A DNA stretch of 64,000 bases, from assembly GCF_002260525.1 (NCBI RefSeq), contig NZ_MRYI01000014.1, positions 62,001 through 126,000 of the forward strand, given 5' to 3'. The DNA is from Hahella sp. CCB-MM4 (GTDB taxonomy: Bacteria; Pseudomonadota; Gammaproteobacteria; Pseudomonadales; Oleiphilaceae). Shown here in pieces: positions 14,986 through 41,707 of the stretch (its first letter is position 1; every line of letters starts with the position of its first letter). A model generated the notes under the pieces. It searched no databases, was not told the DNA's origin, and was given only the letters and a program-made list of their open reading frames with translations. The translations under genes and the position numbers were made by a program.

Positions 14986-15031
14986 GATTTAAATGAAAAT
15001 GATAAGTCTAGTCGACGATTACCTGTTTAGG

Positions 15032-15322
15032 TTAAAGCAAGCCGTACTGTTTCAACTTCTTGCGCAGGGTGCCGCGGTTAAGTCCCAGCAACACTGACGC
15101 CTTAGTCTGGTTGTTGCGGGTATACTTCAACACCTGCTCCAGCAGAGGAGCTTCGACTTCTGACAGCACCATGTTGTAGACATCTTTGACCGGTGCACCA
15201 TCCAGTTGGGTAAAGTAGTTTTCCAATGCCTGCTCAACGCTGTCACGGAGAGTCATAGTATCTGCGGTGGATTTATCAACCTGAAGTGGTGCTTCTGGCG
15301 TGGCAAAGGTCTCTGTAGTCAT
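15032..15322 (-). CDS. fis: DNA-binding protein Fis
   Basis: A 96-residue nucleoid and growth-phase regulator, close to the usual 98. The C-terminus [20 protein letters not shown] is the helix-turn-helix that bends DNA. The N-terminal part (residues 25-45) corresponds to the region used for Hin/Gin stimulation. Its start overlaps the end of dusB by 4 bp, the conserved dusB-fis operon, so its expression depends on the promoter in front of dusB, where the 20-bp repeat array lies. Confidence 0.95.
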
Positions 15323-16308
15323 GCTGCGATTTCCTCTCCTTTTATCGACAAACGCTCAAAGAAACTCTCAAGGGCATCTAATTGTGCCTGGGCGTCGTCT
15401 ATTCGGTTAAATTGCGATTTAAATTCTGCTCCGATACGGGCACTGTCGAGGTACCACCCAACATGTTTACGCGCGATTCTGGCGCCCTGCACAGGGCCAT
15501 AAAACGCGTGCAAATCACTGATGTGCCCGACCAATATGAGTCGAATCTCCTGATGAGACGGCTCCGGTAAAAACTGCTGCGTACGCAGGTAATGTTCGAT
15601 TTCCCGAAAAATCCAGGGGCGTCCTTGAGCTGCACGGCCCAGCATAATGCCGTCAGCCTGGGTGTAGTCCAGTACTTTTTTTGCCTGAAGCGGAGAGGTG
15701 ATATCACCATTGGCAATAACCGGAATTGAGATGCTTTGTTTGATCTCTGCAATGGTGTCATATTCTGCATGGCCAAAATATTTGCACTCTCTGGTGCGGC
15801 CATGAACGGCAAGTGATTGAATGCCGCAATCTTCTGCCATCTTTGCAATGGTTAAACCGTTGCGATTCTCCGGGCTCCAGCCAGTTCTGATTTTCAGGGT
15901 AACAGGCACATCAACAGCCTTTACCACAGCGGTCAAAATGTCCCTGACCAGGATTTCATCCCTTAACAAAGCCGATCCAGCGGCTTTATTACATACTTTC
16001 TTTGCAGGGCACCCCATATTGATATCGATGATCTGGGCACCATGCTGTTGATTGTAGCGAGCGGCAGCTGCCAGCATTTCGGGGTCTCCCCCGGCGATCT
16101 GTACCGCGATAGGGGCATCTTCACCTGAGTGGTCCATCCGCAATTTTGATTTGCGGGTGTTTCTCAGGTCCGGATTGGCCGCCATCATCTCCGAAACCGC
16201 AAGGCCTGCTCCCAACGAACGACACAGCTGTCGAAAAGGGCGATCCGTAACACCTGCCATAGGTGCGAGAATCAGATTGTTACGCAATGGGTAAGGTCCG
16301 ATTTGCAT
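15319..16308 (-). CDS. dusB: tRNA-dihydrouridine synthase B
   Basis: A 329-residue FMN TIM-barrel enzyme reducing uridine in the tRNA D-loop. It begins with [19 protein letters not shown], the conserved FMN-binding opening; the catalytic cysteine is in [10 protein letters not shown] (Cys100), and HGRTR follows further on. The C-terminal helical domain covers about 240-329. It is co-transcribed with fis (ATGA-type overlap). Confidence 0.96.
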
Positions 16309-16340
16309 GAGGTGTATTCGTTATTGGCCGCGGATCAGTT

Positions 16341-16514
16341 TTGTTTAGCTACTATCAAGTTCGTTCGGCTACTGCCGGTTTCGTTCAGCTACTATCTAGC
16401 TCGTTCGGCTACTATCAAATTTGTTTAGTTACTACCAAATTTGTTTAGTTACTACCAAATTCGTTTAGTTACTACCAAATTCGTTCAGCTACTTTCGTGT
16501 AGCGACTATAGAAG
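16341..16514. repeat. Array of nine 20-bp direct repeats upstream of dusB-fis
   Basis: Seven contiguous 20-bp units begin at 16341, 16361, 16381, 16401, 16421, 16441 and 16461. An eighth (16481) is cut to 14 bp and a ninth runs 16495-16514. Consensus on the plus strand: TCGTTYAGYTACTAYCAAAT. Units 5 and 6 are identical and unit 7 differs by one base; outer units diverge, mainly by transitions. There are no spacers, so this is not CRISPR, and the 20-bp period cannot keep a reading frame. The array is 33 bp upstream of the dusB start. Read on the minus strand, the ninth unit contains TATAGT (16505-16510), which could be a -10 placing the array in the dusB leader. Confidence 0.95.
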
Positions 16515-16605
16515 CTCAATGACGATAGGTGTTTAAAAAATGTTCGCCCTGATTAGGGGTGCCTATGATACTCAGATGACAGGGGGCGGAAAAGACTTGA
16601 AATTT

Positions 16606-16648
16606 AAAAAATAGAGTATTTTTTATCCCGTAAGGGTTAAATTTAACC
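16606..16648. repeat. AT-rich inverted repeats upstream of the array
   Basis: AAAAAATA (16606-16613) and TATTTTTT (16617-16624) form an 8-bp inverted repeat around GAG. GGTTAAATTTAACC (16635-16648) is a perfect 14-bp palindrome, a plausible site for a dimeric repressor or helix-turn-helix protein. The rest of the gap 16309-16709 outside the repeats holds nothing I can name, except TCGGCCCG / CGGGCCGA (16671-16692), a perfect 8-bp stem just after the DUF3426 stop codon. Confidence 0.6.
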
Positions 16649-16709
16649 AATACATTGTGGAGGAGTGTTCTCGGCCCGTTGATCCGGGCCGATCTGAAAC
16701 CGTCAGGTA

Positions 16710-18035
16710 TTACTTGCCGGTTTCATATGTGGCAATAAAATCGAGGGTGTAATTGACCGCTTCTTTGCCTGGATCGAGTATTTCCAAAGCAATATGCACC
16801 GGCACATTGGACGGCATGACTTTCATACCTTTGGCTTCTCCGGACAGGTATTCCTGCGGGGTAAATCGACGTTGTGCGATCACTGCATTATTGATATCGG
16901 AGAAGTTTAATGAAATATCCGGGAACGGCTGCTCAAAGGTGGCTTGATTAATGATGATGGCATCAATAATCAGCGCTTTGTTAACCAATGGGTGGCTACG
17001 GACAACCAGGTTCTGACTCTTGATTTTATCAATGTCGTACAAGGAGGGCAGGGTACATCCGAGGACGTCACAAGCCTTGGCGTATATAGGACGTAGCTGA
17101 TCATAGCGGGCCAGCTTGTCGAAATGAAACCAGGCCAATTGAAGTACCAGGAACACCAGCAGAGAAATAATCGACAGGGTCCAGAAAGCGGTTTTATACC
17201 AGTTGGAGCCCCCGCCTTCCCCTGCAATCGAGCGGACACTGATAGGGTCGGCCCTTAACGAATGGTAGGGGTTATCCCTTTCGGCACGAATCGATGAGGC
17301 CATCGGATCAGGCTGAGGCGGCGGACTGGAGGTCGTTTTCGGGCGTGGAGGCGGCGCCGGTGTAGGCTCGGAATAATCCGCTACTTCCAGGGCGGAGGCT
17401 GAAGGGGAGGACGGCTTGGACGGAGCCTTGCTTGGTGGTGCCGGTTTATCTGGTGCGGGTGATGGCGATGACGGCTTTTCGAGCTCGCGCAACATTTGCT
17501 CAGCCCAGCTTTCATCTGTCCCGGCAGGTTCCTCTTCTTCGGAGTCTCCTTCAAATTCGTAAGCTTTTTTCTCATCGGGCTTTTCCAGTTCACGAAAGCT
17601 GTCACTTAGTTCGCTTTCGTCAAGCAGTCCACCTGAGTAGCCTTCCTCTTCCTTATCCTCATCCGGGTCATCCTGGAACATCAATTCGTCATCGATATCG
17701 TCGCCGGCAGCAGTAAGGGCTTCTGTCAGCTCATCCAGGCTATCGTCGATTTCCGGAGTTTCAAAGTCTGTATCGGCGAATATGTTGTCACCGGAGACAA
17801 TGCTGGATGTGTTGTCTTTTTTTGCAACAGCAGGTTCTGGAGCCGCTTTTTTGGCTTGTGGTCTGGTAGCCTGTGAGCGGGGTGGCGGCGCAGCAGCGGT
17901 ATCTTCTGACATCAGATGTTCAGAGGCATTGAAAACTTTCATGCAGGCTCCGCACCGGACCTTTCCGTGGGCAGCCTGTAGTTGTGCATCGGAAACCCTG
18001 AAGCTGGCGGAACAATGTGGACAACGGGTTAACAA
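16710..18035 (-). CDS. Zinc-ribbon membrane protein with DUF3426
   Basis: A 441-residue protein. The N-terminus is an MJ0042-type zinc ribbon with CPHC (Cys5, Cys8) and CGAC (Cys28, Cys31). A long acidic, then Pro/Ser-rich low-complexity linker follows (about 45-260). One membrane helix (about 278-302, TLSIISLLVFLVLQLAW) leads to a DUF3426 domain. So the ribbon is probably cytoplasmic and the C-terminus periplasmic. It starts at TTG 18035 with GGAGG five bases upstream. It is regularly found between prmA and dusB in this bacterial group; function unknown. Confidence 0.85.
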   Translation of the reverse strand: MLTRCPHCSASFRVSDAQLQAAHGKVRCGACMKVFNASEHLMSEDTAAAPPPRSQATRPQAKKAAPEPAVAKKDNTSSIVSGDNIFADTDFETPEIDDSLDELTEALTAAGDDIDDELMFQDDPDEDKEEEGYSGGLLDESELSDSFRELEKPDEKKAYEFEGDSEEEEPAGTDESWAEQMLRELEKPSSPSPAPDKPAPPSKAPSKPSSPSASALEVADYSEPTPAPPPRPKTTSSPPPQPDPMASSIRAERDNPYHSLRADPISVRSIAGEGGGSNWYKTAFWTLSIISLLVFLVLQLAWFHFDKLARYDQLRPIYAKACDVLGCTLPSLYDIDKIKSQNLVVRSHPLVNKALIIDAIIINQATFEQPFPDISLNFSDINNAVIAQRRFTPQEYLSGEAKGMKVMPSNVPVHIALEILDPGKEAVNYTLDFIATYETGK

Positions 18036-18237
18036 TGAAGCCTCCGAAGATTAACTAGCAAATGACCAATTTCCACTTCCTGCCGACAGGTATAAGCCGG
18101 ATTTCAATTCAGACATCCAAATCAAGGTTCAGATGCATAGCTTTGAAGGCTGCTGCGTACTCGGTAGGAAAGAGCTGTTTAAACATGAATGAAAGACAGA
18201 ATTTTTGCAAGTATCTGATCTTTAATACTTGGTGACA

Positions 18238-41494: not shown

Positions 41495-41617
41495 ACCATG
41501 CGTTCCAAGAGCTGCTATTCTTTAGTAGCTGTCATGTTTTGCGTGGGTTACCCTGTCCACGGTAGGGTGGTTAAAAAATGATGGAAATTAGACATTTATC
41601 CGTCAATATATAACTAC

Positions 41618-41707
41618 CAGACGAATACATTCGCAGGTGCCGGTAGCCCTGCGGAATATAACCAGACGAATATATCCGCAGATGCTGATAGTCTTGCGGA
41701 ACATAAC
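41618..41707 (+). repeat. Two 45-bp tandem units in the ptsP leader
   Basis: Units at 41618-41662 and 41663-41707 differ at eight positions, all transitions. Each contains T-Y-CGCA, 14 bases, then TGCGGA: a 6-bp hairpin; unit 2 pairs perfectly and unit 1 keeps it with a G-U pair. They lie in the gap 41495-41823. Also there: AGCTGCTA/TAGTAGCT (41510-41530), a stem after the rppH stop, and ATGGCCGG (41712-41719) with CCGGCCAT (41760-41767). The frame 41579-41830 has no stop between its ends but no usable start codon, so I do not call a gene. Confidence 0.85.

Follow-up and report, generated by a model that had tools for sequence, protein, structure and literature searches.

Hahella sp. CCB-MM4 has an array of 20-bp direct repeats in front of its dusB and fis genes. 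Is this array a control element of a master regulator, or is it a minisatellite that arose in this lineage? I analysed the window, i.e., the whole stretch of 64,000 nucleotides to which all unprefixed coordinates refer. Its minus strand carries, in this order, a biotin carboxylase gene, prmA, a DUF3426/zinc-ribbon gene, dusB, fis, purH, and purD (Pfam naming). On this strand, dusB (Dus, PF01207) lies at 15319 to 16308 and fis (HTH_8, PF02954) at 15032 to 15322, with an overlap of 4 bases. The array region is chromosomal and syntenic with that of the sister species (G002). In the literature searched, no paper combining Hahella, tandem repeats, and fis was found.

Eight contiguous units occupy positions 16334 to 16493 of the minus strand. 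They follow one another in strict 20-bp register on the dusB sense strand (16493 to 16474, 16473 to 16454, and so on down to 16353 to 16334), and 10 of the 20 columns are invariant over the eight units (AGTA-C--AAC-A----G). A clipped ninth core of 14 nt, AGTCGCTACACGAA, was read by eye at 16494 to 16507 on the same strand. It is spaced 14 bp from unit 1 and matches the core AGTARCYRAACRAA at 12 of the 14 positions (by eye). Thus, the nine copies counted in an earlier note on this DNA were counted correctly, as eight in-register units plus the clipped core. The repeats indeed reach up to the ninth core (16507), while the end given there, 16514, is a few bases too far. Tandem Repeats Finder (TRF) reported a period of 20, 7.6 copies, 80% matches, no indels, and a score of 148; the best score reached in each of 30 dinucleotide-shuffled 64-kb windows was between 31 and 56. 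These are head-to-tail units in several copies, above chance, and within the size range of minisatellites (roughly 10 to 100 bp). Between neighbouring units, 24 differences are transitions and 5 are transversions, in agreement with the previous remark that the substitutions are mostly transitions. In contrast, the idea that proteins bound to the units would line one face of the DNA does not hold. By calculation, with 10.5 bp per helical turn, two full turns exceed a 20-bp step by about 34 degrees, so that eight copies drift by about 240 degrees around the helix.

Where does the array lie relative to the promoter? The upstream sequences of 31 family loci were compared, namely the best-scoring 30 of the 61 genomes matched plus the locus of Hahella sp. 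HN01 (L012). They represent 30 distinct upstream sequences, and G004 (L009) is identical to HN01 over 930 bases around the dusB start. From an alignment, a -10 box (TATCAT) was predicted at 16565 to 16570 on the minus strand. The nominal start, placed 7 nt past this box, would be 16558. The box is followed by a discriminator-like stretch, AGGCACCC (16557 to 16564, minus strand), recognized by the alignment and a pattern search, in which six of the eight residues are G or C. In the 31 loci of the best 30 plus HN01, the corresponding 8 nt contain four to six G or C residues. A loose -10 pattern (GTAT-AT box), composed after the alignment had been seen, occurs upstream of dusB in all 31 of these best-scoring loci, versus a mean of 1.05 in 100 mononucleotide shuffles. 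Outside the 31 family loci, it matches 36 of 79 loci. A stricter promoter pattern (GTATNAT plus GC[GA]CC) is found in 20 of 110 loci and in 14 of the 31. A sigma-70 consensus scan did not pick out the predicted dusB promoter, and its two hits in the region were at the level of shuffles.

Two Fis-like sites, called with the Fis motif, flank the predicted start on the minus strand. One is centred at about -63 (16614 to 16628) and the other at about +21 (16531 to 16545). Of the 31 family loci (best 30 of 61 plus HN01), 30 have the upstream site between -62 and -67 and the remaining one has it at -54, versus a mean of 0.04 and a maximum of 1 in local shuffles. The downstream site, at +18 to +26, was found in 18 of the same best-scoring 31 (shuffles, mean 0.10 and maximum 1). 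This conserved layout points to a conserved Fis autoregulation, as judged from sequence comparison. The AT-rich tract described in the earlier note would then be the upstream region of the predicted dusB promoter. The perfect 14-bp palindrome that it had placed upstream, GGTTAAATTTAACC, is present at 16635 to 16648. The palindrome is imperfect in the sister species, and the window has nine places with a perfect 14-bp palindrome.

According to the passages of PMC3865300 on the fis promoter of Escherichia coli and Salmonella, the sequence between the -10 box and the start is GC-rich, and Fis sites lie on either side of the start. The layout predicted here resembles it in both respects. On the other hand, those passages mention no tandem array, and in Hahella sp. 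CCB-MM4 the array is added downstream of this layout. Counted from a start at 16558, position +52 or so marks the beginning of the clipped core, and the eight units follow from about +66. Since the array begins about 50 to 65 nt downstream of the predicted start, it would be transcribed as leader RNA if this start is correct. Stop codons in all six frames of a 392-nt stretch rule out a leader peptide that would cross the array.

Is the array common in the genus? Seven Hahella genomes were sampled, including that of the window. The array is absent at dusB from all six others, including the sister species, whose DusB is 93% identical; its presence is thus lineage-specific in this comparison between species. 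The earlier note had named such an absence in sister species, together with unchanged fis expression, as a refutation, and the absence itself was found. The dusB spacer, measured between the flanking alignments, comes to 188 bp in this genome and 55 bp in the sister. By TRF, the remaining 109 of 110 loci have nothing comparable in front of dusB (500 bp each, 242 bp in one locus). Some of these loci have unrelated small repeats before dusB, for example one of 11 bp in 4.1 copies adjoining the start (L029) and one of 20 bp in 2.2 copies, which is G-rich (L065). The consensus was searched for in this genome and in its relatives, as suggested previously. The degenerate core has seven exact matches in this genome, all of them within the array, in which unit 5 has one mismatch to it. 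Five of the six genus relatives have none, and the single match in G005 lies inside a 208-codon open frame and is regarded as a chance hit. When 261 bases around the array served as the nucleotide query, the search returned the array itself and three weak matches of 15 to 21 bp (E values 1.5 to 5.3), one of which overlaps the array; these, too, are regarded as chance hits. One of the weak matches outside the array lies in this genome and spans 19 to 20 bp at an E value of 2.8. Thus, the unit is specific to this locus and not a dispersed element. The leader of the sister species was considered as the source of the unit, but the TTGAT/CTGAT matches seen by eye are too short to claim it.

These results bear on the two comparisons made in the earlier note, plasmid iterons and multi-site operators. 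As plasmid-type iterons or the relic of a mobile element, the array would have direct repeats of a fitting size as the sole point in its favour. The locus sits among prmA, the DUF3426 gene, dusB, fis, purH, and purD in a chromosomal setting syntenic with the sister species, a Pfam scan of the seven neighbouring proteins found no replication initiator, and the core was not found elsewhere; I hardly consider this origin credible. As a multi-site operator, each unit would bind a DNA-binding protein at AGTA-C--AAC-A that represses or blocks dusB-fis transcription. The regular 20-bp period and the 10 invariant columns would fit such sites. However, so many invariant columns are not exceptional (P 0.12), the sites drift around the helix as calculated above, and the Fis motif has no match inside the array. 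The site is neither kept at the dusB promoter of the relatives nor, apart from the weak match at E 2.8, seen elsewhere in the genome, as would be expected of a site common to other promoters. Since the predicted promoter and its Fis-like sites are located upstream of the array, which is absent from the six other genus genomes and has no exact core match elsewhere in this genome, neither comparison is supported, and an operator seems very improbable.

A network of repeats shared by many loci was also considered. In the part of PMC4679880 that describes the TAACTGA heptamers of Beggiatoaceae, direct repeats lie near start codons, as they do here, and some units of the dusB array contain TAACTAA or TAGCTGA. 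In Beggiatoaceae, however, one heptamer is reported there to be common to many loci, whereas TAACTRA pairs are not enriched here. They gave 8 hits in this genome, two of them in the array, versus 12 for a reversed control pattern, and 9 versus 9 in G012, which belongs to another genus. The network was dropped because the pairs are not above the reversed control.

Are there similar arrays at other loci of this genome? A non-random sample of 884 kb was searched. The window is part of this sample, most of which comes from the initial 660 kb of contig C1 and from the complete contig C45. TRF found 67 arrays with a period of 15 to 25 bp, 21 of them with at least three copies. Judged by ORF length, a simple rule used in place of annotation, 44 are intergenic (45.4 per 100 kb of spacer) and 23 lie in ORFs (2.9 per 100 kb). 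The units listed are mutually different. The array before dusB has the top score among those of 15 to 25 bp in the sample and is thus an outlier in size, which counts against an ordinary minisatellite. After exclusion of three at stretch edges, the intergenic arrays fall into 8 convergent, 26 tandem, and 7 divergent spacers. Relative to the spacer bases, convergent spacers are over-represented and divergent ones under-represented (P 0.045). Promoters are not expected in convergent spacers, and the excess there is as expected of tolerated DNA.

The sister species has 18 arrays of this size in 792 kb, of which 6 are intergenic. The rate ratio between the two genomes is 3.3 (P about 1e-6, with non-random samples). 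In G001, 400 kb contain 5 such arrays, none of them intergenic, so that the genome studied here is about six times denser. In G012, 29 arrays, 19 of them intergenic, were found in 400 kb; richness in arrays is therefore not unique to this genome. CRISPR-like arrays with the repeat GTCGCCTCCCAYGCGGAGGCGTGGATTGAAAC (TRF output) were seen in L151 of G001, and the ORF rule miscounts them as lying in ORFs. As possible causes of the richness, Ku (PF02735) had a match in none of eight genomes, and the MutS domain PF05188 had one in all eight. Thus, neither explains the difference in density.

On contig C45, 19 arrays of any period were found, and 10 of these have no aligned counterpart on the contig of the sister species. 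Of the other nine, three are spanned by alignments, one lies in a gap of equal length, and five, at four sites including that of dusB, are in places where this genome is 69 to 133 bp longer than the sister. A perfect 9-bp repeat, TCTTAGCGA, is present in 9.1 copies in a spacer of the same contig (L138:16751-16832, G000 C45:56751-56832), and the alignment with the sister has a gap of equal length there. At 41616 to 41707 of the window, an ORF contains two copies of a 45-bp repeat, in a place where this genome exceeds the sister by 117 bp between flanking alignments.

Since the relatives examined lack the array and the sampled part of this genome is rich in unrelated arrays of similar size, the array in the dusB-fis leader is very probably a lineage-specific minisatellite. 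Among the options listed in the earlier note, a neutral minisatellite is thus the one that the data favour. The array may have begun with the tandem duplication, probably through replication slippage, of some 20 bp in a weakly constrained part of the dusB-fis leader. It may then have grown to eight or nine copies, which later diverged by point mutations. On its upstream side are the conserved promoter and Fis-like sites, on its downstream side the dusB start, and it would thus form part of the leader RNA. Bacterial minisatellites and variable-number tandem repeats (VNTRs) resemble it in having head-to-tail spacer units of about 20 bp that are lineage-specific, diverged in sequence, and accompanied by many unrelated arrays in the same genome. 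According to the relevant lines of PMC2884548, such small tandem repeats are in common use for strain typing. VNTR loci vary in copy number between strains, whereas the array before dusB was compared between species, with one genome for each. Its units are only about 80% alike, and hence it may be old and now stable.

Does the leader array tune dusB-fis? It may have been born by slippage as a leader VNTR whose copy number alters the length of the leader, the stability of the mRNA, or the start of translation, and thereby the level of Fis. The array lies inside the predicted transcript, and the leader would be about 250 nt long, versus 116 nt in the sister species. As a precedent, the title of PMC12817950 states that a phase-variable copy number of tandem repeats affects adaptation in another bacterium. 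However, the other 30 family loci manage with leaders of 30 to 136 nt without such an array. The array RNA folds better than its dinucleotide shuffles (z -3.68, 0 of 200 as good), and so does the whole leader to a lesser degree (z -1.97, 9 of 200), but the array is not clearly better than arrays whose columns were permuted identically in all units (z -1.09, 40 of 300 folding at least as well). Thus, repetition itself can beat dinucleotide shuffles. An Rfam search of positions 15000 to 18100 with E values up to 1 gave a sole match, inside dusB, at E 0.91 and with 20.9 bits, where the cut-off is 55. Of the RNA leader proposed in the earlier note, transcription stands if the predicted start is right, and the fold surpasses dinucleotide shuffles but not clearly the column-permuted arrays. 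Tuning by a leader VNTR is therefore unlikely. A bolder version, in which the array is a copy-number rheostat for Fis amid a genome-wide burst of 15 to 25 bp duplications and slippage yields heritable variants of the Fis level, is improbable.

The minisatellite would be nearly neutral, and there are weak signs that it has been under some constraint or has gone through a particular history of mutation. Changes in columns 1 to 13 amount to 7 events, versus 11 in columns 14 to 20 (P 0.026, with a post hoc split and the ninth copy left out). Transitions exceed transversions by 24 to 5 in this array, versus 134 to 87 in 50 other gapless arrays of this genome (the counts in this comparison are not independent). 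It is possible that the array exerts a mild effect on dusB-fis expression.

The array before dusB-fis thus carries a caution. Repeats placed in front of a master regulator resemble a control element, yet the conserved promoter lies upstream of them and close relatives do without them. In the samples taken, this genome has an approximately three-fold excess of 15 to 25 bp arrays over its sister species, and the two may serve as a genome pair for studying the birth of bacterial minisatellites.
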